From a virus, in IMG/VR virus record IMGVR_UViG_3300000116_009546, positions 50,386-80,766 of that record: a stretch of 30,381 nucleotides of DNA; one strand, 5' to 3'. Positions 4,247 to 19,788 of this stretch are shown piece by piece. The position numbers and the translations under genes are program-made. Numbering within the stretch: the first letter of the stretch is position 1; each line of letters begins with the position of its first letter. Below the pieces are notes generated by a model. The model saw only the letters and a program-made list of their open reading frames with translations, ran no database searches and had not been told where the DNA came from.

Positions 4247-5260
4247 TTAAAAATCGTCTTCTAAAGATCCACTTTGTTGATATTCTCTAACCCTACGCTC
4301 GAAAAAGTTTCCCATAGCTTGCACATCGACAACCTCGCCCAACCAAGGGAAAGGATTTTTGTCACTTGGGAAGCGATAATCTAACCCTATCGCCTCTAAT
4401 CTTCTGTTTCCTATGTAATGCATATAGTCTACAAACATTTCTGCATTCAAACCTAAGATACCAGTGGGTAAAACATCATGTGCATATGCTATTTCGAGTT
4501 CAACAGCTTTTTTAATATGGTCAACGAATTCGTCTTGGATAGATTTAGTCCAAATAGATGGATTCTGCTCAATTAAAGTATTAATCAAGTATGTCCCAAA
4601 TGCAATATGAGAACTTTCATCTCTTAAAGTATATTTAATTTGATCTGATATACCTTGCAATTTATTTTGCCTGCCTAATGCAAGTAGCATTGCGAAACCA
4701 CTAAAGAAAAAAGTGCCCTCACAAACAATCCAATATGTTAAAAAATTTCTTAATATTTCTTGCTTGCCTTCTTTGCTATGAGCATCAAAATCTTGACGAC
4801 TAATGTCATTCGTAATAGACATCAAAAAATCATCTTTAGCTTTTATGCTTGGAATCGTTTCGTAGGCCGCAAAAACTTCTTCGATATCAAGGTCCAAACT
4901 GTCACAAATATATACAACGGTAAGGTTATGAAGGCTTTCTTCAAAAGCTTGACGCAAAATATACTGACGGCACTCAGCATCAGTAATAAATCTAAAAGCC
5001 GAAAGGAGCAAATTATTGCCAACCAAAGACTCGCTTCCAGCAAAAAAGCCGAGGCATCGTTTAACCAAGAGTTTTTCGTCATCTGTGATTTCATCATTTT
5101 TCCATTGTTTGATGTCATTTTGCATCGAGATTTCTGTAGGCATCCAGTTGTTTGCACAGCTTTTAAGGAATAAATCCCATGCGTATTTATGCTTGTGGGG
5201 TAAAATTCTATTTACTCCAGCGATATTTTTAGTTAAAAGTTCTCCTGTTTTGTTGATCAT
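4247..5260 (-). CDS. nrdB: Ribonucleotide reductase small (beta) subunit, class Ic-like
   Basis: NrdB generates the radical that NrdA uses to reduce ribonucleoside diphosphates to dNDPs. At 337 aa it is complete. All six metal ligands are visible: E77 (SESLVGNN), E108 and H111 (FEESLH), E181 (CEGTFFFSG), E215 and H218 (RDESSH). The residue four after H111, where class Ia has the radical tyrosine and the chlamydial class Ic enzyme has phenylalanine, is valine (V115). Y117 matches the accessory tyrosine described in the chlamydial protein. W53, D214 and Y327 of the radical-transfer chain are kept, and the tail ends in EDDF. From memory, sequence and layout are closest to Chlamydia R2. The first ligand being Glu rather than Asp also fits class Ic. 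A sigma70-like promoter precedes it. Confidence 0.95.
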   Translation of the reverse strand: MINKTGELLTKNIAGVNRILPHKHKYAWDLFLKSCANNWMPTEISMQNDIKQWKNDEITDDEKLLVKRCLGFFAGSESLVGNNLLLSAFRFITDAECRQYILRQAFEESLHNLTVVYICDSLDLDIEEVFAAYETIPSIKAKDDFLMSITNDISRQDFDAHSKEGKQEILRNFLTYWIVCEGTFFFSGFAMLLALGRQNKLQGISDQIKYTLRDESSHIAFGTYLINTLIEQNPSIWTKSIQDEFVDHIKKAVELEIAYAHDVLPTGILGLNAEMFVDYMHYIGNRRLEAIGLDYRFPSDKNPFPWLGEVVDVQAMGNFFERRVREYQQSGSLEDDF

Positions 5261-5274
5261 AATTATATAAAACG

Positions 5275-5303
5275 ATTATAACGCATATTGGGACCATTTG
5301 CAA
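5275..5303 (-). promoter_or_regulatory. Sigma70-like promoter for nrdB
   Basis: Read on the minus strand, TTGCAA (5303-5298) and a perfect TATAAT (5280-5275) are separated by exactly 17 bases in the gap between the LamG-like gene and nrdB. The expected transcription start is near 5268, only about 7 bases before the nrdB ATG at 5260. No Shine-Dalgarno sequence is visible, so the message may be almost leaderless. Confidence 0.6.
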
Positions 5304-5312
5304 GAAAAAAAA

Positions 5313-6341
5313 TCAAGTATTGAAAGTTTTATATAAACTGTTCTTATATGGGTGTGCGATATCTAGCTTTGATACTAGTCCCCACTTGTAAGCTAGGTAG
5401 GCCTCTATGTTTTCACGAGTTTCTTGAGTAAGCTGTTCTCCTTCGTTGTTTAAAAATAAAACTTCTGCAATATATCCTTCGTGATTATTTACGTTTCCTT
5501 CCCTGCTACCTAGTTGTAGTTTGAGCATATCTTCGTTGTTTGGTTGCGTTGAAGTTATCTCGTGAACATATGCTACGTCTGGTTTGGAGCCTTGAAAAAC
5601 TCCATCTCTATATAAAAATGTTCCAAGGTTTCTTTTTGTTGTCCCTAGCACAGTTTCTTGCATAGAAATTCTTTCGTCTGTGTCATTTTGGCTTAAAAAA
5701 TTAATTTTGTCATTTTGTGCGCTGTCAAATGAACCTATGATAGATGAATCTGACCGCAGGTAAAATCTAGATTTGTTGGGGTTTTCGTTTCCTGAGCCAA
5801 GAATGTAATCTTTGTTTGCTGCGTCTGATTTGTATACGATAAATACGGTTGTGTATCCAAATGAAATTACGTCTTTGCTTGAAAATGTAAGGAAATTGTC
5901 TACTCCATCGAAGTCTATAACATTTAATCCGTTAAGGGTTCTAGAATTCGTGCTTGGCATTTGGTTAGCCGTTGAGGTTGATGCATGAAAATTGTTTCCG
6001 CTAATATCTCTCCATTCGCTAACGCTTCCAGAAGACTCTGAGATAGAGTTGCTTACTGTTGCATCAAGGTGGGCTCTTATTGTGATGTCTAAAGCATTTA
6101 ATTTGCTTTTTCTTTGAGGTCTAAATCCTGAATCGTATTCATCTTTGATCTCTAACTCTAGATCAAAATTGTATAATTTTCTAAATAATTCTCTGCCTGT
6201 ATGATTAATAAAATAATGTTCGTCTGCTTCTGTTCCCGCTAAAAGTATTGTATTAATCTGAGATTTCCATGTACTTAAGTTTGTCTGCAGCTCTTCTTTT
6301 GTCGCAGAGTGAATAAGTTTATTTAATTCTTGAAGGTTCAT
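5313..6341 (-). CDS. LamG/concanavalin A-like jelly-roll protein, probable virion or adhesion protein
   Basis: The protein has 342 aa. Residues 1-80 are a short N-terminal module (MNLQELNKLIHSATKEEL...) ending in RPQRKSKLNALDI. Residues about 85-320 look like a LamG/laminin-G jelly roll: an early W-R-D-x-S-G-N motif near 107-113, strands around NVIDFDGVDNFLTFSS, and a C-terminal signature IEAYLAYKWGL followed by HPY. That ending is characteristic of LamG-like domains in phage and bacterial surface proteins. Such domains usually bind sugars or serve as trimeric structural parts. A ribosome-binding-like AGGAA lies about 11 bases before the ATG at 6341, and a TTGAAT/TATTAT promoter-like pair lies further upstream. 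Its neighbour is another likely virion protein, so a tail or head-decoration role is inferred, with host-glycan binding as a possibility. Confidence 0.75.
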   Translation of the reverse strand: MNLQELNKLIHSATKEELQTNLSTWKSQINTILLAGTEADEHYFINHTGRELFRKLYNFDLELEIKDEYDSGFRPQRKSKLNALDITIRAHLDATVSNSISESSGSVSEWRDISGNNFHASTSTANQMPSTNSRTLNGLNVIDFDGVDNFLTFSSKDVISFGYTTVFIVYKSDAANKDYILGSGNENPNKSRFYLRSDSSIIGSFDSAQNDKINFLSQNDTDERISMQETVLGTTKRNLGTFLYRDGVFQGSKPDVAYVHEITSTQPNNEDMLKLQLGSREGNVNNHEGYIAEVLFLNNEGEQLTQETRENIEAYLAYKWGLVSKLDIAHPYKNSLYKTFNT

Positions 6342-6361
6342 GTATAAAGAATTCCTGTTTT

Positions 6362-6400
6362 ATTTTCCATATAATATGATCATTATTAGTCAATTCAAAA
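6362..6400 (-). promoter_or_regulatory. Possible promoter upstream of the LamG-like gene
   Basis: On the minus strand a TTGAAT/TTGACT-like element precedes a TATTAT box by about 16 bases in the 104-base gap between the two structural genes. Downstream lies AGGAA and then the ATG at 6341. In sequence this AT-rich, such matches can arise by chance. Confidence 0.3.
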
Positions 6401-6445
6401 GACCACAATATTATAAAGAATAATTTAATATAAGTCAAGATTATT

Positions 6446-6907
6446 TTAAGACTTGTCTACAGGCAACAAGAAAAAAGTATAATAAGAGGGGGTAAAGAGT
6501 CCGTGTGGACGAACATCGCTTTCTACCGAGAACCTTCTTCCATCAAACTCCAGGCGCTTTATTGATTTTAACTGCTTGTATCCAGCTTCATCAACTTTGA
6601 TTCTTACATACCCATCTGGTATTCTTAATTTTAATTGAGAATCTATTTCATGCGTAGAAAGCCTGTCTTCAGATTTATCTGTATCATATTGAATTCTGGC
6701 TTGAAATTCGCCAGTTTGAGTAACTTTTTTTATTGTCTGTTCTGGTAAAGAAGTTTGCTGATATATTGGATTAAAAGAAGGGTTTGTTGTTAAAACTACA
6801 CTTTTAGCCTCTTTGAAGTAATAAACAGGTCTCGAAAAGGTATCATGAACGTGTTGGAACACAGACTGAAGTTCGTTCTTCTGACTTGAATTTAAAAAAC
6901 TTGTCAT
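6446..6907 (-). CDS. Putative phage structural protein, 153 aa
   Basis: I chose the ATG at 6907 (MTSFLNSSQKNELQ) rather than the in-frame ATG at 6958. The longer form would add a 17-residue hydrophobic leader overlapping the divergent sulfotransferase gene. The N-terminus (SQKNELQSVFQHVHDTFSRPVYYFKE) looks helical. The rest is beta-rich (QLKLRIPDGYVRIKVDE, FDGRRFSVESDVRPHGLF). This arrangement resembles small neck/head-completion or head-tail joining proteins of tailed phages, though I cannot name the family. The next gene downstream encodes the LamG-like protein, consistent with a small virion module. The alternative is a hypothetical protein of no structural role. Confidence 0.6.
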   Translation of the reverse strand: MTSFLNSSQKNELQSVFQHVHDTFSRPVYYFKEAKSVVLTTNPSFNPIYQQTSLPEQTIKKVTQTGEFQARIQYDTDKSEDRLSTHEIDSQLKLRIPDGYVRIKVDEAGYKQLKSIKRLEFDGRRFSVESDVRPHGLFTPSYYTFFLLPVDKS

Positions 6908-6922
6908 GTAATATATATACAC

Positions 6923-7525
6923 ATGTATTCCAAGCAAAAAAATTTTATTTTTTTTCATATAGGTAAGTGTGCTGGAAGCAGTATCAGGAAAACCTTAATT
7001 GAAATACTCAAAGAAGAAGGGATAGAGGAAGATTCAGCTATGAAGAATTATCTAACTGCTCATCCAAAGTTCAATGAAATAACAAATCACATTAAAAAGA
7101 ATGGAGATGACCCAGATCAGTATTTAAAATTTACATCAATTAGAAATCCTTGGGATAGAGCTGTTTCATGGTATTATCATCTAAGAACTATAGACAATAG
7201 AAACAAAAGAAACGCACATAAAACACTACCTAAAGAAATAGAATTTCAGGAATTTGTAGAAGAAAGAAAAAGTTCTTGTTCTATGCCTCAATTCAAACTT
7301 TTAAAAAAAAATATATTTGATTTTATAATCAGATATGAAAACTTACAAGAAGATTTCGATACTATGTGTGATATGATAAATATCAAAACAAAAACTCTTT
7401 GTCATATTCAGTATGACACAAAAAGACCTAAGAGGAATTATCGTGATTACTATGACGAAAGAACAAAGAAAATTGTAGAAAAAAGAAATGAAGAATATAT
7501 AAAATTATTTAATTATGAATTTTAG
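6923..7525 (+). CDS. Sulfotransferase (Sulfotransfer_2-like), 200 aa
   Basis: This enzyme would transfer sulfate from PAPS to a hydroxyl, probably of a carbohydrate. Both PAPS-binding elements are clear. The 5'-phosphosulfate loop is FFHIGKCAGSS (10-20, with K15), and the 3'-phosphate motif is SIRNPWDRAVSWYYH (72-86, with R74 and S82). The C-terminus (ERTKKIVEKRNEEYIKLFNYEF, split here at about 179-200) is the usual last helix of this family, so the protein looks complete. It is the only plus-strand gene between about 1 and 23,000. It starts 15 bases from a divergent gene and its TAG overlaps head-on with the stop of the next gene. The isolated orientation suggests an inserted accessory gene. 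The substrate is unknown; the glycans made by this phage are the obvious candidates. Confidence 0.88.
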   Translation: MYSKQKNFIFFHIGKCAGSSIRKTLIEILKEEGIEEDSAMKNYLTAHPKFNEITNHIKKNGDDPDQYLKFTSIRNPWDRAVSWYYHLRTIDNRNKRNAHKTLPKEIEFQEFVEERKSSCSMPQFKLLKKNIFDFIIRYENLQEDFDTMCDMINIKTKTLCHIQYDTKRPKRNYRDYYDERTKKIVEKRNEEYIKLFNYEF

Positions 7526-8145
7526 TCTATTCTAACTTCTTTCCATTTAACTTTACCTTGTTTTATCTGATCTCTAATTTTACGCTGCTTAGAACTTAAT
7601 TGACTCTTCCCACTCTTAACTTCTATAAATGTAATTTCATCTTGACCAAAAGAAACATAATCTATTGGTTGACCTAAAAAACTACATTCTTCTGGTTCAA
7701 ACTCAAATTGATCTAAGAAAGGAGCTAGCGTTTCTGCAATGTGGCCAAGTCTTACTTCACTACTTTTTTTCTGAGAGGTAACCTTGTTCTTTAATTCTTT
7801 TTGTTCTTCTAAATCTTGGGTGAGTTTTGCTACGGCAATTTCAAAATCTTTTTCTTTAGTTTGTATTTCTAACTTTTTTTCTTCTATAGATTTTCTTTCA
7901 TGCTCAAAAGATTCTTTTAAGGATTCCATGCTAAGCCTATGCTGGCCCTCTTTTAAATCTAAATTTTTTTCTAAATCTTTAAATCTAGCTTGGATTAAGA
8001 AATTATCATTTTCTATATCTTTTAAATATTTAAAAGTTTTTTTAAATTTTAAATAAAACCCACCTGCTGATATCGAAAAAACTATTAATAGGCTAAAAAG
8101 TATAACATCCAAAACTCGATCACCTCTTCTTACTGGGAATGGCAT
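7522..8145 (-). CDS. Membrane-anchored Holliday-junction-resolvase-like endonuclease (Endonuc_Holl family)
   Basis: There are three parts in order: an N-terminal membrane helix (DVILFSLLIVFSISAGGFYL, near residues 12-31), a long charged coiled coil (about 40-130), and a C-terminal nuclease-like domain. The last contains LGQPIDYVSFG, then ITFIEVKSGKSQLSSKQRKI, ending GKVKWKEVRID. The D and E-x-K residues in this order are the PD-(D/E)XK core of the family described as distantly related to archaeal Holliday junction resolvases. ATG 8145 overlaps the upstream gene by 26 bases. However, a strong Shine-Dalgarno (AAGAGGTGAT) lies just before an in-frame TTG at 8112, which would start the protein at the membrane helix. 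That start may be the true one. A membrane-tethered nuclease could act on host or superinfecting DNA; this is inference. Confidence 0.8.
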   Translation of the reverse strand: MPFPVRRGDRVLDVILFSLLIVFSISAGGFYLKFKKTFKYLKDIENDNFLIQARFKDLEKNLDLKEGQHRLSMESLKESFEHERKSIEEKKLEIQTKEKDFEIAVAKLTQDLEEQKELKNKVTSQKKSSEVRLGHIAETLAPFLDQFEFEPEECSFLGQPIDYVSFGQDEITFIEVKSGKSQLSSKQRKIRDQIKQGKVKWKEVRID

Positions 8146-8554
8146 AAAAGCCAACTACCATAAAACATAAATCTATAAAAGAGCTAAGCATCAAACCACC
8201 ACTCAATGTAACAACCTCCCATTCTTTGCCCCCAAATATCCAACTGAAAAAACCCCACTTTGCCCCTTCACCCTTTGGCACAATGATGTCGTAAGTAATT
8301 GTTGGGTTGTGTGCATAATAAATCATGAGATAACACATTGTGAACGTTATCGTCATAAATAATATTCTACGAGTAGCCTTTACAAAAGGATCACTAGCCT
8401 GCTTTTCTTGATTTTTAATCATAGCTTCAAGCATAGCAGCATCCCTTGCCGCAAGCATCATTTGGTCTTGGCGTTTTTGCTCTAACCACGAATTAATTAG
8501 ATTGCAGGCCAATTTAATTCCTGCACCTAATATAGTATTAAGGATTGGACCCAT
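8120..8554 (-). CDS. Holin-like membrane protein, 144 aa
   Basis: The N-terminus (GPILNTILGAGIKLACNLINSWL) is an amphipathic or membrane helix. A charged, methionine-rich stretch follows (QKRQDQMMLAARDAAMLEAM). Two clear membrane helices come next, at about 64-83 (ILFMTITFTMCYLMIYYAH) and 114-138 (VTLSGGLMLSSFIDLCFMVV). The tail is basic (PSKKR). This layout recalls three-helix holins, which also combine a hydrophobic N-terminus, a charged helix and late membrane segments. I saw no family-specific motif, so 'holin' is a hypothesis. The ATG at 8554 overlaps the stop of the preceding small gene (ATGA). The next gene downstream also starts with a membrane helix. Confidence 0.65.
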   Translation of the reverse strand: MGPILNTILGAGIKLACNLINSWLEQKRQDQMMLAARDAAMLEAMIKNQEKQASDPFVKATRRILFMTITFTMCYLMIYYAHNPTITYDIIVPKGEGAKWGFFSWIFGGKEWEVVTLSGGLMLSSFIDLCFMVVGFYAIPSKKR

Positions 8555-8745
8555 CAGCCAATAGAGTCATAAGCATCTTTACTGCAAAATTTAGTAAGTT
8601 TTGTTCCGTCTTCATCGACAGCAGCAAGAGCGTATCTTACTGTTTTTTTTCCAGTTTTAGTTACTCGTTCGTAAATTTTTCTTTCGATTTCTGATTCTGA
8701 AATTGAAACTTTTTTCTTCTTTTTTACATTATAGAATTCTATCAT
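8554..8745 (-). CDS. Hypothetical small basic protein, 63 aa
   Basis: This lysine-rich protein begins MIEFYNVKKKKKVSISESEI and has a predicted helix (ESEIERKIYERV) followed by a beta-like segment (KKTVRYALAAVDEDGTKLTKF). One cysteine is present and there is no recognised motif. It lies between the Nudix gene and the holin-like gene with overlapping or near-overlapping ends, so it is probably expressed with them. Its charge would suit nucleic-acid binding, but nothing else supports that. Confidence 0.6.
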   Translation of the reverse strand: MIEFYNVKKKKKVSISESEIERKIYERVTKTGKKTVRYALAAVDEDGTKLTKFCSKDAYDSIG

Positions 8746-8750
8746 ATTAT

Positions 8751-9203
8751 TTATTGGTTGTAGTATTTTTTTAAATTTTGAAGTTTTGTTCGGTATTCAA
8801 TGATGCACTGCACCATGTCATATTGTATAGTATAAGGAAAATTCTCTATATTTTCAATAGGAAACCAAATATATTCTGTGTTTTCTTCATTTAATTTTAC
8901 GGTTGGGCGAGTTTTAAAGTAAGACATATATACTTCTAGCTCAACATTATCGTTCTCGTTGTAAAGTTTTCCTGCGTAATTTAAATCTTTAAGTTCAAGT
9001 TGTATGCCTGACTCTTCATAAGTTTCTCTAATTGCACCTATCATTGGATTTTCGCCTTCATCCAAAAGTCCAGTAAAGATACTCCAAAAGTTTGGCATAG
9101 ACGCAGGCTCTCCCTCGAAAAACTCACATCGTTTAGCTAACAATATTTCGTCTTCATAGACAATGCCGCATCCAGCAGCTCTTTTGCTATTGGCAAGATT
9201 CAC
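8751..9203 (-). CDS. Nudix hydrolase
   Basis: This enzyme hydrolyses a nucleoside diphosphate linked to another group, releasing a phosphate-containing product. The complete Nudix box is at residues 45-67: GLLDEGE, then REtYEESGI. It fits G-x5-E-x7-R-E-U-x-E-E-x-G-U except that the U after RE is threonine. Residues 10-24 (AGCGIVYEDEILLAK) form the usual first strands. At 150 aa the length is typical. It starts at GTG 9203, overlapping the end of nrdA by 17 bases, so it appears coupled to ribonucleotide reductase. Plausible roles are sanitising oxidised nucleotides, cleaving dinucleoside polyphosphates, or acting on nucleotide sugars, given the many glycan genes. The substrate is not deducible. 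Confidence 0.9.
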   Translation of the reverse strand: MNLANSKRAAGCGIVYEDEILLAKRCEFFEGEPASMPNFWSIFTGLLDEGENPMIGAIRETYEESGIQLELKDLNYAGKLYNENDNVELEVYMSYFKTRPTVKLNEENTEYIWFPIENIENFPYTIQYDMVQCIIEYRTKLQNLKKYYNQ

Positions 9204-11616
9204 AAATTTCTCCGTTTTTCATGGCTTCTATGCTGCAGGCAGAAGCTTCAGTTTTTTCTGTTGATTTTTCTATTTTTGAAGCGGCTCTATTTCTTAAATA
9301 GTAAGTCGTTTTTAACCCTTCTTCCCAACATCTAAAATAAATATCATTCAAATACTTTAGCGATGTGGTCTTATTATACAAGTTGAAACTGATAGCTTGA
9401 TCTATCCACTTCTGTCGAACAGCAGTACATTCTATTAGTTTGAACATATCCCTGTCAAAAGCTGTTTTGTATTTTTCTTTTAAATCGTCTGGTATATTTC
9501 CATTAGCTAGAGATAAATCGCCATCTATGCTTTTGATAAAAGATGAAATTTCGTGATTCCATAATCCTCTAGATTTCATATCATTTACAAAATGAGGGTT
9601 TGTTATATAAAAATTGCCACTTTTGTTTTCATAAACAAAAAGTACAGAAAAGTTTGGTTCTATACTTTGTTCAACTCCATTGATATAGCCAATTGTTGCA
9701 GTTGGTGCAATAGCCATAACATTGGAGTTTCTCATTCCGTGTTCTAATATGTGTTTTCGGATAGTTGTCCATTCCTTACGAGACTCTTTTTCTTTATTTT
9801 TTTTGCCTCTGTAGTTCATTAAATTGTTATATGAATCTATAGGCAAGATTGATTGACTCCATAAAGAACCTTCATAATTTTGATATTTGCCTCGCTCTTT
9901 GGCTAGCAAAGAACTAGCATGAATAGCATGCATAGAATAAAACTCAAATAATTCATCATTAAATGCGACAGATTCTTCGCTATCTATCTTTATGTTTTTA
10001 ACATGTAATAAATCATGTAATCCCATAATCCCTAATCCTATGGGTCTATTTTTTAGGTTAGAATTTTTAGCTTCCTGTGTTGGGTAAAAGTTTATATCAA
10101 TAACATTATCTAGCATCCTGATTGCTATACGAATAGTATTTTTTAATTTTGGGAAATCTATGTCACTTTTTGATTCATTAAGATGATTCAATAAATTTAT
10201 AGAGCCAAGATTGCAAACAGCAGTTTCGCCAATTTCTGTTTTTTCTCCTTCTTTATATTTAGAAGGTTTTGTATGTAATGTAATCTCCGTGCAAAGATTA
10301 GAACTTCTCACTGCTCCTTCATGTTGATTTGTATATCTAATATTGCAGGGATCTTTAAAAGTGTTCCATGGATGAGAAGTTTCAAATAGAACCTTTAGCA
10401 TCTTTTTCCACAATTCTTTTGCTGGGATTTTTCTGAAATTTTTAATAGTTCCAGCTTCTGCTGCTCGACAGGCGTCTTCATATCGATCATCAAAGTCTTT
10501 ACCGAAATAATCATGTAACGTCTTTCCGTCTTCGTAAACCATTTCGCTAGGGTTAAAAAAGTACCAATCTTCTTCAGCTTTAACTCTTCTCATAAATTCA
10601 TCTGGAATCCATGATGCTGTATTCATGTCATGACACCTAAGCCTATCATCTCCCGTATTTCTTCTGAGATTTAAAAAATCTTCATAATCCAAGTGCCAAG
10701 GCTCTAGATAGGCGCAACCTGCTCCTGGTCTTTTGCCGCCTTGATTTACTGCCACCAAAAGGTCATTGTATATTTTAAGCCAAGGAACAAGGCCGCTAGA
10801 GATACCATTAGTTCCCTGAATATGAGCGCCTGTAGAACGAAAAGGGGTAACATCAAGGCCAAGCCCACCAGCGTATTTTGATTTTCTAGCTTCCTGCCAA
10901 GCACCGTCAAAGATACCATCAATACTATCATCAAAAGTATTAAGATAGCAAGAACTAAGCTGTGAGTGTGTAGTTCCACTGTTAAAGAGGGTTGGTGTAG
11001 AAGGTGTGTATAGCTGTTGACTTATTAAGTCATAAAATTCTATAGCTTTTTCGTTTTTGTTTTTTTCGTTTATCGCAAGACCCATAGCAACTCTCATATA
11101 GAAAGCTTGAGGAGCCTCCATTACTTTATCCTCTAACCTAATGAAATATCGATCATATAATATTTGTACACCTAAATATTTTAAATTTCTATCTCTTCTG
11201 ATTTTTATCGCTTCTGATAATTGAACCAAATTAAAATCTAATAATCTCGTGTCAAGGCGATGCGCCTTGCATAATTTTTTAATATTTTGTATGAAGGTTT
11301 TTCTGTACTGTAGTTTAAAAATGTCAGAATCAACACCCTCTTTAAAAACTTCCTTGTATAAATTATTTAATAATAATCTAGCTGCAGCATAAGAATAGTT
11401 GGGCTCTTTTTCAATTTTTTCTCTAGCTGATAGGATTAAAGCTTGATCTATCTGCTTCGTGGTTATTTTATCGTATAGCTGCAACTGAGCATCTAGTACG
11501 ATTTCGCTGGCAGAAACATCCTCTATGGATTCGCAGGCTCTCTGTGCGCTTAAATTGATTTTATCGACATTGAAAGGTTCTAGTCTTCCGTTTCTTTTTT
11601 TGACCTTTATTTCCAT
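9187..11616 (-). CDS. nrdA: Ribonucleotide reductase large (alpha) subunit, class I
   Basis: The catalytic subunit reduces ribonucleoside diphosphates. An ATP-cone allosteric domain occupies residues 1-90 (KRNGRLEPFNVDKI). Active-site residues are present: C223 (QLSSCYLN), N440, C442 and E444 (SNLCTEITL), and C468 (AVCNLGSINL). The stacked radical-transfer tyrosines are Y772 and Y773 (TTYYLRNRA). The tail has the C-terminal redox pair C805/C808 (CESCQ). At 809 aa it is intact, with no intein or split, which are frequent in phage nrdA. ATG 11616 lies downstream of a TATAAT box and a 10-bp hairpin. The retained ATP cone suggests dATP feedback is preserved. Its partner nrdB lies about 4 kb further downstream on the same strand, separated by structural genes. 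Confidence 0.96.
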   Translation of the reverse strand: MEIKVKKRNGRLEPFNVDKINLSAQRACESIEDVSASEIVLDAQLQLYDKITTKQIDQALILSAREKIEKEPNYSYAAARLLLNNLYKEVFKEGVDSDIFKLQYRKTFIQNIKKLCKAHRLDTRLLDFNLVQLSEAIKIRRDRNLKYLGVQILYDRYFIRLEDKVMEAPQAFYMRVAMGLAINEKNKNEKAIEFYDLISQQLYTPSTPTLFNSGTTHSQLSSCYLNTFDDSIDGIFDGAWQEARKSKYAGGLGLDVTPFRSTGAHIQGTNGISSGLVPWLKIYNDLLVAVNQGGKRPGAGCAYLEPWHLDYEDFLNLRRNTGDDRLRCHDMNTASWIPDEFMRRVKAEEDWYFFNPSEMVYEDGKTLHDYFGKDFDDRYEDACRAAEAGTIKNFRKIPAKELWKKMLKVLFETSHPWNTFKDPCNIRYTNQHEGAVRSSNLCTEITLHTKPSKYKEGEKTEIGETAVCNLGSINLLNHLNESKSDIDFPKLKNTIRIAIRMLDNVIDINFYPTQEAKNSNLKNRPIGLGIMGLHDLLHVKNIKIDSEESVAFNDELFEFYSMHAIHASSLLAKERGKYQNYEGSLWSQSILPIDSYNNLMNYRGKKNKEKESRKEWTTIRKHILEHGMRNSNVMAIAPTATIGYINGVEQSIEPNFSVLFVYENKSGNFYITNPHFVNDMKSRGLWNHEISSFIKSIDGDLSLANGNIPDDLKEKYKTAFDRDMFKLIECTAVRQKWIDQAISFNLYNKTTSLKYLNDIYFRCWEEGLKTTYYLRNRAASKIEKSTEKTEASACSIEAMKNGEICESCQ

Positions 11617-11705: not shown

Positions 11706-12665
11706 TCAAGTGCAAAATTCAATATTGTCTTTAAACCATGAGTATGTTTTCAGAAGGCCTTGTTCTAAAGATGTTTGTGGATTAAACCCTAGGTTTTTTA
11801 ATCTAGAATTATCCATTTTTTTTCTATAAGTCCCATCAGGCTTTGTGGAATCAAAAATAATCTCCCCGTCAAATTTAACAATATTTTTTATAATTTTTAA
11901 AAGTTTTAAAATTGAAACTTCTTCGTCAGATCCGCAATTTATGTGAGATATATTTTGAGAGTAGATATCTTTAGCATGGATATTTTCCATTAAAAAACAG
12001 ATAGCACTAGCAACATCGCCTGCATACAAGAATTCTCTTAAAGGTTTGCCTGTTCCCCATAATGTAACATTTTCAGCATTTTCGATTTTAGCTTTATGGA
12101 CTTTATGAATTAAGGCTGGAAGAACATGAGAAGTTTCTAGATTAAAATTATCGTTTTTTCCGTATAAGTTGCATGGCATTATTGAATAATAATTTAATCC
12201 ATATTGATCATATAAAGCTTCGCACATTTTTAATGTAGCTATCTTGGCTATAGCATAAGGTTCGTTGGTTTTTTCAAGTAGGCCAGTAAGAAGGCTCTCC
12301 TCCTTAATTGGTATATCTGCATGCTTTGGGTAGATACAAGATGATCCTAAATTAATTAATTTTGAAACATTATTATTTCGACTTGCATTAAGTATATTAA
12401 TGCCTATCATGAGATTATCAGATATAAAATCAGACCTATAATTATTGTTAGCTAGTATGCCTCCAACTTTTGCTGCACATAAAATTACACAATCAATACT
12501 TAAGTTTTGGAAAAACAAATTAGTGTCGTCTTGATTTCTTAAATCTAACTCTTCTCGATTTCGTGTGATTATATTTTTATAACCTAAACTTTTTAATTTT
12601 CTTAAGACTGCCGAACCGACCATTCCGTTATGTCCAGCAACAAAAATACAAGAATCTTTATTCAC
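11706..12665 (-). CDS. fcl: GDP-L-fucose synthase (epimerase/reductase)
   Basis: This enzyme converts GDP-4-keto-6-deoxy-D-mannose to GDP-L-fucose with NADPH. At 319 aa it is a full-length short-chain dehydrogenase. The Rossmann motif is GHNGMVG (11-17). NLGSSCIYP (105-113) holds the catalytic serine, and YAIAK (137-141) is the Y-x3-K pair. The AAKVGGI segment (64-70) is typical of Fcl/WcaG. The start is GTG at 12665, overlapping the TGA of gmd by 4 bases, so it is translated directly after gmd, its pathway partner. It is the last gene of the 12-gene sugar cluster. Fucose is the best prediction; related enzymes making other 6-deoxyhexoses are possible. Confidence 0.92.
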   Translation of the reverse strand: MNKDSCIFVAGHNGMVGSAVLRKLKSLGYKNIITRNREELDLRNQDDTNLFFQNLSIDCVILCAAKVGGILANNNYRSDFISDNLMIGINILNASRNNNVSKLINLGSSCIYPKHADIPIKEESLLTGLLEKTNEPYAIAKIATLKMCEALYDQYGLNYYSIMPCNLYGKNDNFNLETSHVLPALIHKVHKAKIENAENVTLWGTGKPLREFLYAGDVASAICFLMENIHAKDIYSQNISHINCGSDEEVSILKLLKIIKNIVKFDGEIIFDSTKPDGTYRKKMDNSRLKNLGFNPQTSLEQGLLKTYSWFKDNIEFCT

Positions 12666-13720
12666 TGTCTACTTAGTTTGTTATAATCACTTTGATACAT
12701 TTTCTTGACCAAACCCTTGAAGTCGGTTTTTCTTTCCCAACCAAGGTCACGTTCTGCCTTTGAGGGGTCACCGCAAAGTTCATGAACTTCAGCAGGTCTA
12801 TAAAATTTTTCATCCACCTCCATTATTAAATGATCACCCTTTTTTGAGAAATATTTTTCTTTATCATTCGATCCAGTTGTATAATATTCTATGTTGGCAT
12901 TCAATAAAGTCTCTTCGAGAAACTCCCTGATGGTGTGCATTTTTCCACTTCCTAAAACATAGTTTTTGGGCTTGCCTTTTTGATTCAACATTAGCCAAAC
13001 TCCTTCCATGAAATCTTCAGCATCACTCCAGTCTCTTTGAGCTTCCAGATTTCCTAAAGAAAAATAAGGAATTTTTACATGTTGAAGATTTGATTTTTCT
13101 AGAGCTAATTTAAATTTAGCTACATTATATGTAATTTTTCTTGTGACAAAGTCAAGTCCACGCCTTACACCCTCATGATTGAATAGCCAGCCTTGAACGG
13201 CATAAAGACCATAGGATTCTTGATATACTCTTACAATATGTCTAGCGGCACATTTTGCTGCTCCGTAAGGTGATTGAGGTCTAAGTGGATGATCATCATT
13301 TTGAGGAGAATAAATTACATCTCCAAATTCTTCAGAAGACCCAGCGTTGTAAAAACGACATTCAGGAGCAAATCTCCTTATGCCTTCTAATATATCTAAA
13401 ACTGCATTAGCATCAGTACCCCATGTTTGTATAGGATATTTCCAGCTTCCTGCAACAAAAGATTGTGCGGCAAAATTAATGAAATAATCTGGTTGTAAGT
13501 CTATTATTACATCTCTAATACTATGGGCGTCATTTAAGTCTAAGTCCACTAACTCAAACCTATCTTCATTTTCCAGATGTAAAATATTTTCATGATTTTT
13601 AACACTAAGTCTTCTGACTGATCCATATATTTTATGGTTGGTATTTTTTAATAAATAATCAACCATATGGCTTCCGTCTTGACCAGTCACACCAGTTACT
13701 AGTATTTTTTTAGTTTCCAT
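12662..13720 (-). CDS. gmd: GDP-mannose 4,6-dehydratase
   Basis: Gmd converts GDP-D-mannose to GDP-4-keto-6-deoxymannose, the first step towards GDP-fucose. At 352 aa it is full length. GVTGQDGS (10-17) is the diagnostic Gmd nucleotide-binding motif. AGSSEEFG (126-133) and SPYGAAK (150-156) carry the serine, glutamate and Y152/K156 catalytic residues. NHEGVRRG matches the conserved NHES-P-RRG loop that contacts the neighbouring subunit and NADP. Its stop overlaps the fcl start. No mannose-activating enzymes (ManB, ManC) are seen here, so GDP-mannose must come from the host or from elsewhere in the phage. Confidence 0.95.
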   Translation of the reverse strand: METKKILVTGVTGQDGSHMVDYLLKNTNHKIYGSVRRLSVKNHENILHLENEDRFELVDLDLNDAHSIRDVIIDLQPDYFINFAAQSFVAGSWKYPIQTWGTDANAVLDILEGIRRFAPECRFYNAGSSEEFGDVIYSPQNDDHPLRPQSPYGAAKCAARHIVRVYQESYGLYAVQGWLFNHEGVRRGLDFVTRKITYNVAKFKLALEKSNLQHVKIPYFSLGNLEAQRDWSDAEDFMEGVWLMLNQKGKPKNYVLGSGKMHTIREFLEETLLNANIEYYTTGSNDKEKYFSKKGDHLIMEVDEKFYRPAEVHELCGDPSKAERDLGWERKTDFKGLVKKMYQSDYNKLSRQ

Positions 13721-13726
13721 ATATAT

Positions 13727-14650
13727 TTAATATATTAATTTACTTTTAATAAAATTAAACAAAAAATTTGAATTTAAATATTTTTTATTGTAACTCTCAC
13801 AAGAGAGCCCTATATTTTTATGATTCACTAAAATGTCAGTTATTTTTTGAGATAAAGTTTTATCATAGAAATCAAGACAGGGGATGTGCTCTGAATATGT
13901 TTCGCAATAATCAAAGCAGCTTTTATTTAAAACTACAGCATTGCCCAAAAAAGTTTGCTCCCATATTTCATGGCAGTGGTCTTCTTGGCTAGAATTTAAA
14001 ACTACAAGTTTACATAATTTAGACTTATAAATGTAATCTTTGTAATCTTTGATATTTAATTCTAGAATAGATGTATTATATTTTTTAATTCTATCAAAAA
14101 TATTAAAAGATCTATTATTTAATAAATATCCTGTATTCGAACTTTGACCAAAAATATTATATTGAGAGTGATCGTCGTGATTTATTAATGAATTAAACTG
14201 ACTAGGTTTAGCTAATTTTTGAGTTTTTTGGGGGTAAAAAATTCCTATATCATATTTCTTCTCTGGGCCATCTTCTTCCTTTATAGAATTTAAAATATTA
14301 AATTTTTCAGAATCTCTAATCCAATGAAAAAAGGGTATTAATTCTCCACCGTTTTCTTCAACTAAAGACTTTAGGTTTCTATTTAATTTTTTTGAATAAG
14401 AACACTTGAAATAAAAAAATTTTTTATCTTTATTTTTTTTAAGTAATGAAAATACTTTAGCGCAAGATTCTTGGGTATTTAATTCGCTAGAAATTCCATA
14501 GCAAATATCTATATAAAAATTAAAACTTTTCCCATAAAAACAAGCTAGATTTGGAATTGGCGATTTCCCATAAAAATTAGATATATTTTTAAGGTTGTTA
14601 TGTAGGTAGAAAAAATCTTCTTGATTATAAAATCCAGAAAGTTTAGTCAT
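13727..14650 (-). CDS. Putative glycosyltransferase-like protein, 307 aa
   Basis: No textbook motif is present, but the layout is GT-B-like. The N-terminal half (1-150) alternates strands and helices. The segment DIGIFYPQ (about 133-140) looks like the start of a second Rossmann-like domain. The C-terminal part HEIWEQTFLGNAVVLNKS (about 226-243) resembles the donor-site helix of GT-B enzymes, in which a glutamate precedes a strand ending in VVL. It sits between gmd and the epimerase with 6-base gaps on both sides, clearly in the sugar cluster. It could be an exostosin- or CgeB-like transferase. It is assigned mainly by context. Confidence 0.55.
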   Translation of the reverse strand: MTKLSGFYNQEDFFYLHNNLKNISNFYGKSPIPNLACFYGKSFNFYIDICYGISSELNTQESCAKVFSLLKKNKDKKFFYFKCSYSKKLNRNLKSLVEENGGELIPFFHWIRDSEKFNILNSIKEEDGPEKKYDIGIFYPQKTQKLAKPSQFNSLINHDDHSQYNIFGQSSNTGYLLNNRSFNIFDRIKKYNTSILELNIKDYKDYIYKSKLCKLVVLNSSQEDHCHEIWEQTFLGNAVVLNKSCFDYCETYSEHIPCLDFYDKTLSQKITDILVNHKNIGLSCESYNKKYLNSNFLFNFIKSKLIY

Positions 14651-14656
14651 AGATTA

Positions 14657-15565
14657 TTAAATTCCTAAGTCTTGTTTGTATTTAGGAATCCATTCTTCTA
14701 CGCTGACAGTTGGATTCCAGCCTAGCAAGCTTTTAGCTTTTGAGTTGTCGGCTAGAGTTTCTTGCGGTTCCAACCTTTTTTCAATATATTTTTTGGGGCC
14801 ACCAATTAGATCGGCGATTTGATTAACCGAACGATTGTCGCCATTACCTATATTTATAACATCTCCAGAACCCACATTTTTTGAGGTCATAGATAAAAAA
14901 TTGGCCCTGCAAACATCTTTAACATATGTAAAATCTCTTCTTTGTTCTCCATCTCCTGTAATTGTCAAGGGTTCATTTTTTAATCTTTGTTGAGCGAAAA
15001 TGCCCATAACTAAAAGATATGCTCCCTCTAAGGATTGTCTTTCTCCAAAAACATTAAAGTATCTCAGGCTAACTGTTTCTAAGCCATAGCAATGATAAAA
15101 TACTCGACAGTATTGTTCTCCGATTAATTTTTGCAACCCGTAAGGGCTCAAAGGGTCTGTAGGATGATTTTCTGGAGTGGGTAAAATTTCAGCATCTCCA
15201 TATGCTGAAGAGCTCGCACTATAAACAACTCTTTTAATTCCAGCTTTAACTGCGGCATCTAGAACGAAAAGTGTTCCATTTACATTCACTTTATTGAATT
15301 CATGGGGGTTTTCAATGGAAGGTTGCACTCTGGCCAATGCAGCCAAATGAAATATTCCATCGTAGCCAGAAATAGAATCAACTAAAGGTTGAAAGTTAGA
15401 GTGATGTGCAATGTCTAAAACTTTTAGGTCTGCTTTTTTATTTACATTAGATTCTTTTCCAGTAGAAAAATTATCAATGACTAAAACTTCATGACCTTCT
15501 TCGATCAGAAAATCCGTTAAGTTACTTCCTATAAAGCCAGCTCCGCCTATAACTACATATTTCAT
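14657..15565 (-). CDS. NAD-dependent epimerase/dehydratase, UDP-glucose 4-epimerase-like
   Basis: This is an extended short-chain dehydrogenase of 302 aa. It has GGAGFIG (7-13) for NAD, an acidic residue after the second strand (VIDNFSTG, D31) that favours NAD over NADP, SASSSAYGD (116-124), and Y142/K146 (SPYGLQK). RYFNVFGERQ and DFTYVKDV are typical of the GalE/WbpP group that inverts C4 of UDP-glucose or UDP-GlcNAc-type sugars. It could provide UDP-galactose, UDP-GalNAc or a uronic acid for the neighbouring transferases. The exact substrate cannot be determined by eye. Small gaps of 6 and 11 bases link it to its neighbours. Confidence 0.88.
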   Translation of the reverse strand: MKYVVIGGAGFIGSNLTDFLIEEGHEVLVIDNFSTGKESNVNKKADLKVLDIAHHSNFQPLVDSISGYDGIFHLAALARVQPSIENPHEFNKVNVNGTLFVLDAAVKAGIKRVVYSASSSAYGDAEILPTPENHPTDPLSPYGLQKLIGEQYCRVFYHCYGLETVSLRYFNVFGERQSLEGAYLLVMGIFAQQRLKNEPLTITGDGEQRRDFTYVKDVCRANFLSMTSKNVGSGDVINIGNGDNRSVNQIADLIGGPKKYIEKRLEPQETLADNSKAKSLLGWNPTVSVEEWIPKYKQDLGI

Positions 15566-15576
15566 ATTATTGTATA

Positions 15577-16314
15577 CTATTTTAATTTATTATAAATGTC
15601 AAAATAAACTTTGTATAAATTTTCAAAATCTAGATCATTAAAATCTTCATTAGAATCTAGATGCGAAAAATCTACATAATCCATATTTGGTTTGTTTGGG
15701 TTTTTACTGACATATTTTTCAGCACAAGACACAGCAGCACTTAATGTTGGTATCGATCTTAATTTATTCATGTTATATAAATAACCCCAATGCCCCCTGT
15801 AAAATCTATTAACTAAAGTGTTGCACACCTTGCTTGGGTATTGTAGATAATCATGCAAGTTTGTTAAAATGTCAAATTCCCTCATCTTAAACATAGGTTT
15901 AATTGATGTTGCAAAAGTTGACTCTGGCTTTTGAACGCTCTTCATTAAATGTTGGTTTTTATTTAAATGAATGAGTGGGGGCTTCTTGTGGACTGTAGGA
16001 GTACCTATCCTTCTCGCACTCATTAGATTGTCATAAAAAGCTCCAGTTGCCCAGACTAAGTCTGGATCTTTACATGCAATATCAAAAAGATCTGAAAGTC
16101 CCTGAAAACATAAACGATCAGCATCATTTCTAATAAAAATTTCAAAATTAGATTCAGATGCTATTTTAGCAAAATCCAAAAACTTTTTATCAAAACCACT
16201 TTCATCTTCTAGAATAATGTGGTTGTTGAATCCTAGTTTCTTCATACAATATATGGAAAAATCTTTTGTTTTCTCTCCTTGAGCGAAAGTTACTACTAAA
16301 CATTTATCTTTCAT
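15577..16314 (-). CDS. Putative GT-A-type glycosyltransferase, 245 aa
   Basis: The protein starts with a strand typical of nucleotide-diphospho-sugar transferases (MKDKCLVVTFAQGEK). After an acceptor-free helix it shows FEIFIRNDADRLCF (57-70), in which the N-D-A-D tetrad sits where a GT-A D-x-D metal site is expected. LVWATGAFYD follows. The C-terminal half is aromatic- and asparagine-rich and ends in an acidic helix. No close family is recognised. The ATG at 16314 overlaps the next upstream gene's stop by 4 bases, so it is part of the sugar operon. Call by fold pattern and context. Confidence 0.6.
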   Translation of the reverse strand: MKDKCLVVTFAQGEKTKDFSIYCMKKLGFNNHIILEDESGFDKKFLDFAKIASESNFEIFIRNDADRLCFQGLSDLFDIACKDPDLVWATGAFYDNLMSARRIGTPTVHKKPPLIHLNKNQHLMKSVQKPESTFATSIKPMFKMREFDILTNLHDYLQYPSKVCNTLVNRFYRGHWGYLYNMNKLRSIPTLSAAVSCAEKYVSKNPNKPNMDYVDFSHLDSNEDFNDLDFENLYKVYFDIYNKLK

Positions 16315-17123
16315 TTTATTAATTTATTTAATTGATTTATATTTACAAATTCGTTCTTGCCTTGACTTGAGGATCTGGCCGATTCTTTAAATGTGTGGCA
16401 GCAGCCTCCATCTAGAACACCTGTTTTTTTATTTAAATTGTGAAACTTTTCCCCAGCCCTGCATTCAAATCTTTGCATAACTGGGGATTGTTCGTCAAAA
16501 AAAGAATGTAAAACTTCTGACCTCCAGATAGTGGGCCTTGATACATAATGCCAATTAGTTTTATAAAAATTGTAATTCATGGATTTAATTGGTCCATCCC
16601 ATGATAACTTAGCTGAACTAGTGCAATTAACATTTTTTTCATCAAACCCTGTGTTCTGGTAGTGACGTACAGAATCTGGATTTACTGATTTAGGAGTTTT
16701 TTCTGAATTGAAATTATCCATTTTATTAAAATTCCAATATGGTATTCTAATACAAGAAGTGTCTTCATTACTGTTTAAGAAATTTATGCAAGGTTGCACG
16801 AAATCATATTTGTAAAAAACAAAATCGTCATATGTATAAAGACAATATTTGTATTGTCTAGATAAAGCTAAAAACGAAGATGTATATATAACAGAAATGT
16901 CCCAAAAATTTTTCTTTAAAATTATAGTTTCATCAAAAGTTTTTTCTTGTGATATTCTTCTGGAAAAAGATGGACTGCAGTTGTTGCAAACGGCAATTAT
17001 ATCACAGTGTGTTTTATCTATTTTACATAAAGAATCTAAAGATTTAAGGCAATTAGAGATTCTAAATCTTTTATTAGAATCATTGATGTAAAAAAGACAA
17101 GCTATTAAAATTTTATCTTTCAT
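16311..17123 (-). CDS. Putative GT2-like glycosyltransferase, 270 aa
   Basis: The N-terminus MKDKILIACLFYINDSNKRF and the helix ISNCLKSLDSL have the GT2 'start-strand plus recurring helix' look. DIIAVCNN is a second strand, and YTYDDFVFY (97-104) places D-D where the D-x-D metal site falls. HYVSRPTIWRSEVL (about 192-205) resembles the segment in which these enzymes recognise their acceptor or admit a donor loop. Cysteines near the end (GGCCHTF, about 239-245) are unusual. It overlaps the GT4-type gene upstream by 11 bases and the gene downstream by 4, so it is tightly coupled. Donor unknown. Confidence 0.65.
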   Translation of the reverse strand: MKDKILIACLFYINDSNKRFRISNCLKSLDSLCKIDKTHCDIIAVCNNCSPSFSRRISQEKTFDETIILKKNFWDISVIYTSSFLALSRQYKYCLYTYDDFVFYKYDFVQPCINFLNSNEDTSCIRIPYWNFNKMDNFNSEKTPKSVNPDSVRHYQNTGFDEKNVNCTSSAKLSWDGPIKSMNYNFYKTNWHYVSRPTIWRSEVLHSFFDEQSPVMQRFECRAGEKFHNLNKKTGVLDGGCCHTFKESARSSSQGKNEFVNINQLNKLIK

Positions 17124-17997
17124 CCAACAATGTTTGAAAAAAATCTATGTATTTGTTGACGCATTTAACTTTTTTAGGAAATTCAAAAGAATTTAATCTT
17201 CCTAATATACTCTGTATTAATCTAGGTAGTTCTTTTTCGTTCGTATATAGTTCTCCTGAGTTTCCGACTATTTCAGGGTGTCCCCCATCCTTTAATGCTA
17301 TAACTGGTGTGTGTGTAGATATTGCTTCTATTAATGAATTTGAGCATGGATCTTTTTGGCTAGCGGTAAGATAAATAGAAGAATTGCGAAGCTCATTAGA
17401 TAGTTGATTTGAATTCAAACAACCTATTGTCTTAATATTTTTAAAAACAAATGGAGAGTTTCCAGCGAATACATATTCTAGATTCGAAAAGTCAAGTTCA
17501 CTATCTAAAAATTTATATGTATCAAATCCTTTTTTTATGTTTGAAGAATAACTTGTGGATATTATTCTGAATTTTTTAGGCGGCGATGATTTTGGGAAAA
17601 ATACAGAAGGGTCAGCATCATTATATATAACACAATAAGGTTTATCACTTGAGAATCCTAACTGCATGTTTGCATCTAAAGAATAGGCGCTTTGAAATAC
17701 AGAAGCATCAGCAACTGATCCATTTAAAAAATAAACTATATCATCTCTGTCATCAGACATTTTATTGTAAAGACGCATTGGCCCATCAATTCTATGAACA
17801 AACTTCTTATTGGGGTAATTTCTTTTTAGATCTATTATATCTTGCGCATTTTGATGACTATTAAATAATACTATGTCACTGTCTTGCACTTCGGAAAGTA
17901 AGTTTAATTTTTCAAACTCTTTAGCTAAGAAACTTATGAATTGATTCCCTCCGCCCCAGGGGGAATTTGTGGTCTTATATGCTATATGTATTTTCAT
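17113..17997 (-). CDS. Glycosyltransferase family 4-like (GT-B), 294 aa
   Basis: This is a GT-B transferase. The N-terminal domain opens MKIHIAYKTTNSPWGGGNQF, a glycine-rich acceptor loop common in GT4 enzymes. The donor domain contains STSYSSNIKKGFDTY (148-161), with the K-K-G-F motif that contacts the nucleotide phosphate. It also has the late motif DPCSNSLIEAISTHTPVIA (216-234), carrying the conserved glutamate (E224), followed by DGGHPEIVGNSGELY. At 294 aa it is a little shorter than the usual 350-400. The stop overlaps the downstream gene by 11 bases. A retaining mechanism is expected; donor and acceptor are unknown. Confidence 0.85.
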   Translation of the reverse strand: MKIHIAYKTTNSPWGGGNQFISFLAKEFEKLNLLSEVQDSDIVLFNSHQNAQDIIDLKRNYPNKKFVHRIDGPMRLYNKMSDDRDDIVYFLNGSVADASVFQSAYSLDANMQLGFSSDKPYCVIYNDADPSVFFPKSSPPKKFRIISTSYSSNIKKGFDTYKFLDSELDFSNLEYVFAGNSPFVFKNIKTIGCLNSNQLSNELRNSSIYLTASQKDPCSNSLIEAISTHTPVIALKDGGHPEIVGNSGELYTNEKELPRLIQSILGRLNSFEFPKKVKCVNKYIDFFQTLLDER

Positions 17998-18905
17998 GTT
18001 ATATCGATAGAAAAAGATTCATCATTAATTGGTAAAGGATTTTTTATCCATTCTCCTTTATTGTTTATTGGCATTTGCCATTCTCCATAAGGTGTGGCAG
18101 ACTCTTCAATTGATACAGGCCTATTCATATTTTCCTCTAAGTGAGAAAAGTACTGATAGTACTGATCGTTTTTACCCCTCCAGTAATCTCCAAACCTTTT
18201 GTTGTTTCTCACTCTACAGTTAGTTCCAGACGCATCGGTGTATATGGTGATAGCGCAAGGAACTGACAAATAATATCTTTTTAGGTGTCCAGAATATTGA
18301 AGTGAAACTTTTCGAACAAAATCATCTTCTGCATTTATATCTGAATTGGTATTCCATCCACCGACCGTATCTAGCATATTTCTTGAATATGCTACATCTC
18401 CAGCGCCTGGAATGAATCCATTTGGGTCTACAAAATAATTGTAGTCATTAATGTTGATTTTTTGAAAATTAATTGAAGATAATCTAGCTTTTCTTTGTGC
18501 ATCAATGCAAACACATCCTACATTATTTTTCGTCTCAAACAAAGACTCTATTTCATTGAGCCATTTTTTTCTTACAAATTGCTGGTCTCCTTGAAGTGGT
18601 ATGATTACATCTCCGCTCGACTCTTTGTGTATGATATTCAATGCATCAGAAAAAGGATCTATGTGAGAGCTGTTATCTAGACCCACTTTTTTTGAAGATT
18701 TTCTTAATTGATCTTGGTGGATAACATTGAAGTTTATTGATTTTAGAAATTTTAGAAATTCTTGGGTTCCAGATTCGATGCTACCGTCATCAATGCAAAT
18801 AAACTCTATATCAGGGAAATCACTTGTGGTTTCAAGCAATGACTTAACACAGCTTTTAAGATAAAAAAGTCGATTAAAATTAACTATAGCTATTGTGAAT
18901 TTCAT
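17994..18905 (-). CDS. Glycosyltransferase family 2, 303 aa
   Basis: I chose ATG 18905 (MKFTIAIVNFNR) because the longer frame begins at a TTG at 18920 and adds only five residues. The protein begins with the standard GT2 strand-helix (AIVNFNRLFYLKSCVKSLL) and FICIDDGSIESG (35-46), the nucleotide-binding loop. The usual D-x-D site is QGDQQF (105-110), a weaker version. GFIPGAGDVAYSRNMLDTVGGW and NAEDDFVRKVSL are the conserved late GT2 acceptor/catalytic segments (E-D-D). The C-terminus (about 255-303) is extra. It overlaps the previous gene's 3' end by 26 bases. Confidence 0.88.
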   Translation of the reverse strand: MKFTIAIVNFNRLFYLKSCVKSLLETTSDFPDIEFICIDDGSIESGTQEFLKFLKSINFNVIHQDQLRKSSKKVGLDNSSHIDPFSDALNIIHKESSGDVIIPLQGDQQFVRKKWLNEIESLFETKNNVGCVCIDAQRKARLSSINFQKININDYNYFVDPNGFIPGAGDVAYSRNMLDTVGGWNTNSDINAEDDFVRKVSLQYSGHLKRYYLSVPCAITIYTDASGTNCRVRNNKRFGDYWRGKNDQYYQYFSHLEENMNRPVSIEESATPYGEWQMPINNKGEWIKNPLPINDESFSIDIT

Positions 18906-19788
18906 ATAAAAATTTATCAAAACCTTTTTTGTTTATAAAATAATCTAAACTTTTTTTGTAAGCAAAGTCGACATCAGGCTTAGCACACTCATGTTCACCA
19001 ATATTAAAAATAGATTTTTTATTTAAAAATATTTTTGCGCACCCAACATTTGTGGAGATAATAGGTGTTTGGGATGCCGCGCATTCTGGTATAGCTTGAG
19101 GACCTCCTTCATGCCTAGATGAAACTATGTAAAGATCTAAACAATTATACAGTTTGTTTAAGTCTTCAAAACTACACATTTCCTTAAACTCAAATGGTAT
19201 GCCTGTTTTGGTTAATCTGGATATAACATAATTCCTTCTCCAACCAGCAAGCAAGACCACCAAGTTTTTATTTTTGGAGAACTCTTTCTCAACTATGTCG
19301 CAAAATATATCTGGACCTTTTTCTAGTTTAGGACTAATGAGATCTGAGCCCTCAGTATCTCTTTGGAATGAACCTACATAAAATTTATCTTCTTTAAGAT
19401 TTAAATCAAGCAAGCATTTATCTCTATCTAATTTATTAAATAAAGAATTATTGATCCACCAATGTTTTATAAAAGATGGTTTGTTTATATAATTCTCAAG
19501 AAAAATTTTAGTCGAATCGCTAACGAAATGTATTTTATTTGAATGCTTGTTTATATTAAAAACGTTTTCTTCGTTGAACTTTTCTGGAACTATATGATGT
19601 ATAGTTGATATGACATTTTTAAGTTTTAGTATTGGGTTATTATAGTTAAATGTCCAGGGGCTAATAACCCAAACAGTATCTGCTTCAGCGATATTTTCAG
19701 TGCATATTTCGGGATTGTACTGATAGAATTCTTTGCGAAGCCTATCGCAAATCCAATTTTCTCCAGGATGATTTATGTAAATTTTCAT
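18880..19788 (-). CDS. Glycosyltransferase family 4-like (GT-B), 302 aa
   Basis: The acceptor domain is short (MKIYINHPGENWICDRLRKE...). The middle has VGSFQRDTEGSDLISPKLEKGPD (138-160), where K157-G-P-D corresponds to the phosphate-contact region. VLLAGWRRNYV follows at about 178-188. The donor motif is SSRHEGGPQAIPECAASQTP (223-242), in which E227 and E235 form the E-x7-E-like pair of GT4 enzymes, followed by IISTNVGCAKIF. The protein is complete. It overlaps the upstream gene by 4 bases and the downstream GT2 by 26. A retaining sugar transferase is well supported; the substrate is not. Confidence 0.87.
   Translation of the reverse strand: MKIYINHPGENWICDRLRKEFYQYNPEICTENIAEADTVWVISPWTFNYNNPILKLKNVISTIHHIVPEKFNEENVFNINKHSNKIHFVSDSTKIFLENYINKPSFIKHWWINNSLFNKLDRDKCLLDLNLKEDKFYVGSFQRDTEGSDLISPKLEKGPDIFCDIVEKEFSKNKNLVVLLAGWRRNYVISRLTKTGIPFEFKEMCSFEDLNKLYNCLDLYIVSSRHEGGPQAIPECAASQTPIISTNVGCAKIFLNKKSIFNIGEHECAKPDVDFAYKKSLDYFINKKGFDKFLYEIHNSYS

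Follow-up and report, generated by a model that had tools for sequence, protein, structure and literature searches.

How a class I ribonucleotide reductase (RNR) could be driven by a small subunit (R2) that carries no tyrosine at its radical site is the question raised by the nrdB gene of this virus. The gene, which starts with ATG, is located in a window (the whole stretch of DNA analyzed here, 30,381 nucleotides) of an 80,766-base IMG/VR virus record, and a megablast search of the window against phage records returned no match. Its product was recognized by the Pfam profile PF00268 (256.8 bits) and the NCBIfam model NF005550 (450 bits; cut-off 309), and the best PDB matches, both by sequence and by fold, were to Chlamydia trachomatis (Ct) NrdB, including its Mn/Fe forms; the alignment with C. 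trachomatis R2c (1SYY/4D8F) gave an E-value of about 1e-112 and 52% identity. The best fold match of an AlphaFold2 model of NrdB (mean pLDDT 83, with a poor C-terminal part) was C. trachomatis Mn(II)Fe(II)-NrdB, although the large rmsd (about 8-10 A) means that this match contributes little beyond the sequence.

An earlier note on this DNA had described NrdB as a chlamydial-type subunit with six metal ligands and with valine rather than tyrosine four residues after H111. Both observations were confirmed: E77, E108, H111, E181, E215, H218 and V115 passed a codon-level check, as did Y117, D214 and Y327 from the same list, and the six ligands were also aligned to those of Ct R2c. The window motif EESLHNLTVVY aligns without gaps to Ct EEAVHTHTFLY, and V115 is thus the equivalent of Ct F127 (Table 1); an alignment was named in the note as a possible refutation, and it placed no tyrosine at the radical site. 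The presence of W53 was checked in the alignments. The roles given to two of these residues had to be revised, however. The conserved W53 and Y117, which the note had taken as relay residues, W53 being the conserved one of the two, are the equivalents of Ct W65 and Y129, whereas the published activation relay of C. trachomatis R2c is formed by Y222 and W51 (PMC4118035), which correspond to Y210, absent from the note's list, and W39.

Table 1. Positions in the window of the two RNR genes and of the principal residues of NrdB, with their C. trachomatis (Ct) equivalents
Feature	Position	Strand	Basis
nrdB, class I RNR small subunit R2, class Ic lineage, 337 aa	4247..5260	minus	ORF and profile matches
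nrdA, large subunit, 809 aa, one N-terminal ATP cone	9187..11616	minus	
Codon 115 (GTT), Val at the radical-tyrosine position (Ct F127, E. coli Y122)	4916..4918	minus	codon check and alignment
E77, first metal ligand, site 1 (Ct E89); Asp in Tyr-bearing relatives	5030..5032	minus	
E108 to H111, metal ligands (Ct E120, H123)	4928..4939	minus	invariant
C180 (clade-specific; Ct M192) and E181, site 2 ligand (Ct E193)	4718..4723	minus	
D214, E215 to H218, second-sphere Asp and site 2 ligands (Ct D226, E227, H230)	4607..4621	minus	
W39, relay tryptophan (Ct W51, E. coli W48)	5144..5146	minus	codon check, alignment; Ct number by offset
Y210, equivalent of Ct activation-relay tyrosine Y222	4631..4633	minus	codon check, alignment, PMC4118035
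Y327, C-terminal radical-transfer tyrosine (Ct Y338)	4280..4282	minus	alignment

Among the 81 closest viral loci (89.5-100% identity), position 115 is occupied by valine in 69 and by isoleucine in 12, and all of the metal ligands are invariant. Together with remoter viral members (62-83% identity to the window protein), found with viral locus L171 as the query, these phage proteins form a Val/Ile (V/I) clade of 131 distinct sequences, 120 with valine and 11 with isoleucine, in which every ligand is retained. Across this wider clade, codon 115 takes the form of every valine and every isoleucine codon (GTA, GTT, GTG, GTC, ATA, ATC and ATT), indicating that the residue was maintained despite drift of the DNA. 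Pairwise dN in the clade is about 0.06, with dS saturated for most pairs, and Val/Ile at position 115 is held by strong purifying selection. This selection and the full range of codons rule out a sequencing error or a pseudogene.

The residue at the radical site is strictly coupled to the first metal ligand. In 236 distinct relatives with both positions present, comprising bacteria (from one genome-contig scan), other viral contigs, a few phage records and the phage clade itself, an Asp first ligand was accompanied by tyrosine in 67 of 67 cases and a Glu first ligand by another residue in 169 of 169 (V 120, F 37, I 11 and L 1), and neither mixed pairing (Asp/non-Tyr or Glu/Tyr) occurred. As this pairing is without exception, the window NrdB is not simply a class Ia protein minus its tyrosine, and a chance loss of tyrosine from such a protein is ruled out. 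The bacterial Glu/Phe R2 proteins (Planctomycetota, Chlamydiota, Verrucomicrobiota, Actinomycetota and others; e.g., 6Y2N) have the same ligands and pairing as the window protein at 46-52% identity, and Val or Ile was never seen among those fetched, only the 37 Phe and the single Leu. The Asp/Tyr NrdB proteins (NrdBza, e.g., Acinetobacter; Pseudomonas phage Peetri) belong to the same family at 43-49% identity, but their Asp first ligand and Tyr radical site constitute the class Ia signature, which the window protein lacks.

Two further observations were made among the relatives. The top protein hit in the phage collection, 'Acinetobacter phage MD-2021a' (CAKLQH020000007.1), was rejected as a phage because it is probably mislabelled bacterial DNA; its nrdAB genes are flanked by bacterial chromosomal genes (RstAB, PhzF and LysR-type). 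In addition, a separate viral Glu/Phe R2 lineage (L172, L176 and L180/L266, on contigs of 176, 436 and 74 kb) carries Phe at the position of Ct Y222, which is Y210 in the window.

The phylogenetic tree was rebuilt after removal of distant outgroups, whose very long branches had disturbed the first tree. The V/I phage clade was monophyletic (support 100/100), and another 100/100 branch united 14 phage rows with 17 Glu/Phe-Leu rows, the latter including C. trachomatis R2c and, among the Glu/Phe members, proteins of Chlamydiota, Planctomycetota, Verrucomicrobiota and others. Outside this branch were the Asp/Tyr proteins and the Saccharopolyspora-type Glu/Phe proteins. The tree names no donor lineage, as a long stem (about 1 change per site) leads to the phage clade and the branching order within the 100/100 group was not settled by it.

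This grouping with C. trachomatis R2c agrees with the class Ic pattern of the residues. The first sphere of NrdB (E77, E108, H111, E181, E215 and H218) and its second sphere (E107 and D214) reproduce the E,E,H,E,E,H and E,D tabulated for NrdBzc (PMC6370689), and the equivalents of E107/D214 set class Ic apart from Id, Ie and Cyano SP (PMC6370689). Replacement of the tyrosine by valine also falls within class Ic of RNRdb, for which Phe, Leu or Val is named (Lundin 2009, as cited in PMC6370689). The remaining classes are distinguished by their residues: Val and a Glu first ligand are found here instead of the Tyr and Asp of classes Ia and Ib; V115 and E107 are found instead of the class Id combination of Tyr, a Glu first ligand and C/S at second-sphere position 7; and all of the carboxylates are present, with none of the Q/V, S/P or K replacements of class Ie. 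The Cyano SP or class O phage R2 proteins (PMC6370689, PMC9531940) similarly have a redox-inert residue (Phe/Leu) for the radical Tyr, but they are minimal proteins that carry Asp at second-sphere position 7 and, in those papers, branch away from class Ic, unlike the window NrdB with its Glu at that position and its place beside C. trachomatis.

The partner subunit NrdA contains all of its expected motifs (C223, C442, C468, Y772-Y773 and C805xxC808), and in each of the 128 phage loci that yielded an nrdA, this gene lies upstream of nrdB in the same orientation. The gap between the two matches is 0-273 bases in a second set of loci and 47-4243 bases in the window's subclade, and this range among close relatives (L002-L081) makes the interval look like an insertion hot spot. 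Exactly one R2 is encoded by each of seven long relatives (125-211 kb), which for these records rules out an inactive second R2 beside a normal one. A terminase-like match was present in all seven (one under the family cut-off); searches of the relatives for a T4-like capsid (PF07068) and glutaredoxin (PF00462) gave no match, but as the capsid search was the control and stayed equally silent, this absence carries no information. Further genes of the window code for a RecA-like protein, a DnaB-type helicase, a dUTPase, an SSB and a Nudix protein, together with a possible deoxynucleotide monophosphate kinase (a weak match, below the cut-off), a gene content that fits a large tailed phage making its own DNA precursors.

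Several other genes were observed around the RNR genes. The interval between nrdB and nrdA in the window (5261-9186) holds the Nudix gene, a Holliday-junction-resolvase-like endonuclease, a sulfotransferase and other genes without assigned function, and the two sulfotransferase-family genes of the window are at 6923-7525 and 27982-28605. A run of sugar-nucleotide and glycosyltransferase-like genes (11706-22953), including GDP-mannose dehydratase and epimerase types, adjoins nrdA. In the sister phage subclade (L171, L186-L258) a DUF1501 (PF07394) gene is often directly downstream of nrdB; in the window's subclade, about 23 loci have distant homologues of it (about 30% identity) in the vicinity of nrdB, and a gene for an A-type Fe-S carrier is nearby in a few loci.

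Taken together, we consider it probable, at roughly three chances in four, that NrdB is a working R2 of the class Ic lineage that, like its C. trachomatis counterpart, holds Mn at site 1 and Fe at site 2 and drives NrdA with a Mn(IV)/Fe(III) oxidant. The note's assignment to the chlamydial type, with an oxidant that should be metal-based, is supported by sequence, phylogeny and structure comparison, and the inference of such an oxidant, which would most likely be Mn(IV)/Fe(III), is well founded. As position 115 offers no tyrosine, the oxidizing equivalent would be stored in the metal cluster itself. By analogy with C. trachomatis, which supplies the metal identity, the oxidation states, the activation relay and the radical pathway, Mn would bind E77, E108 and H111 and Fe would bind E181, E215 and H218; Mn(II)/Fe(II) would react with O2 to give Mn(IV)/Fe(IV), and reduction of this state by way of Y210/W39 would yield Mn(IV)/Fe(III). 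The oxidizing equivalent would then travel by way of D214/W39 and Y327 to Y772/Y773 and on to C442 of NrdA, where the reduction of ribonucleoside diphosphates for phage DNA synthesis would begin.

Compared with C. trachomatis R2c (1SYY, 4D8F and 4M1I), the window protein shares the six ligands, the equivalents of E107/D214, W39, Y210 and Y327, and the combination of a Glu first ligand with a non-Tyr radical site. The window clade differs in having Val/Ile instead of Phe and in G75, S109, N112, L113, C180, I208 and T211; moreover, the window protein is phage-encoded and its NrdA has a single ATP cone. The class Ic ligand pattern, the pairing in 236 relatives, the 100/100 branch, the PDB matches, the selection, the complete NrdA and the single R2 thus speak for a class Ic enzyme, whereas the clade-specific residues near the ligands, Val/Ile instead of Phe/Leu, the long stem and the moderate model with its large rmsd speak against it.

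The clade-specific residues deserve particular attention. G75, S109, N112, C180, I208 and T211 are invariant in all 131 proteins of the V/I clade, whereas the other groups have T/A, A and T/S at positions 75, 109 and 112 and M/F/L/T, mostly F/Y, and I at positions 180, 208 and 211; C180, directly before ligand E181, occurs in no other relative. Judged by sequence, these residues flank E77, E108, H111, E181 and Y210, and such clade-wide changes beside the ligands may tune the cofactor or the metal site. Because they are unlike every other class Ic protein compared, the metal preference could differ. A tentative extension of this idea, to which we give rather low odds, is that the V/I clade stands functionally apart as a sub-branch of class Ic, in which G75, S109, N112, L113, V/I115, C180, I208 and T211 would bring about a metal preference, redox potential or activation route unlike that of Ct R2c, as an adaptation to the metal supply in infected marine bacteria.

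The same residues would favor an oxidant that is metal-only but built on another pair, either dimanganese (class Id-like) or high-valent diiron. Classes Ic and Id share the same first-sphere ligands (PMC6370689), the six invariant residues are absent from other class Ic relatives, and C. trachomatis R2c is readily mismetallated in vitro (PMC8463856). However, class Id retains the radical-site Tyr and C/S where the window protein has V115 and E107, the matches to class Id structures were poor (17-20% identity), and the tree places the clade with C. trachomatis, which together make a different pair unlikely. An organic radical on another residue, such as Y117 or Y176, made by the metal cluster is far less probable still. 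Y176 is present in 130 of the 131 clade members and in about a third of the other class Ic relatives, and V80 and Y176 are spaced from their ligands like the cross-linked Val-Tyr pair of R2lox (PMC6060897), but Ct R2c possesses Y129, Y188 and V92 and yet uses Mn(IV)/Fe(III), and Thr replaces Y117 in two clade members. As Ct R2c has the same V/Y pair and R2c proteins were reported without the cross-link (PMC3824934), none is predicted here. Although R2lox and unorthodox secondary R2 subunits have lost the radical Tyr as well (PMC3824934), it is equally improbable that NrdB is a decaying or auxiliary (beta-prime type) subunit or an R2lox-type oxidase rather than a radical generator, considering the conserved ligands and C-terminal radical-transfer Tyr (Y327), a residue that R2lox lacks, its status as sole R2 in the seven long relatives, the strong purifying selection and an R2lox score (best model 72.5 bits) far under the cut-off of 194.

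Returning to the class Ic reading, related proteins were reported previously. According to a preprint of February 2026 (PMC12918982), 269 marine viral alpha sequences from GOV 2.0 form a new clade nearest NrdAz, and their beta subunits, with Ile or Val at Y123, were named subclass Ic-like; the group was kept separate over Val/Ile instead of Phe/Leu, and its cofactor was stated to be unknown. The 131 distinct phage proteins described here are likewise viral beta subunits with Ile/Val at the radical site and all ligands kept, and marine viral class I RNRs with an alpha subunit nearest NrdAz are common to both data sets. Matched by this published description, the window NrdB almost certainly belongs to the Ic-like clade. 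Val, Ile and Leu at the radical position of R2c proteins had been recorded earlier (Hogbom 2010, as cited in PMC3824934), and since RNRdb class Ic admits Val and the preprint reports the viral Ile/Val clade, the novelty of our finding is limited. A beta phylogeny, the ligand pairing and a second-sphere analysis are not given in the available text of the preprint, and the clade-wide changed residues are what the present analysis adds.

The advantages that the note had attached to such an oxidant require more caution. Such an oxidant does not imply hydroxyurea resistance, since in the C. trachomatis enzyme this compound intercepts radical transfer and reduces the cofactor during turnover (PMC8463856, PMC11883743); the tolerance of class Ic to NO is a published hypothesis only (PMC4118035), and any benefit to the phage when its host mounts an oxidative defence is speculative. 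A saving of iron in seawater is no less plausible, as the viral Ic-like group was anti-correlated with iron (PMC12918982), although the same preprint states that its pattern is not explained by single metals.

As viral Ic-like R2 proteins with Val/Ile are already described in the preprint, the remaining value of this locus is mainly biochemical. Class Ic chemistry rests largely on one protein, C. trachomatis R2c, and a large marine phage clade with an aliphatic radical site and a conserved second sphere of its own is a natural test of Mn/Fe selection and oxidant strength, with a bearing on how phages make DNA precursors under iron scarcity.
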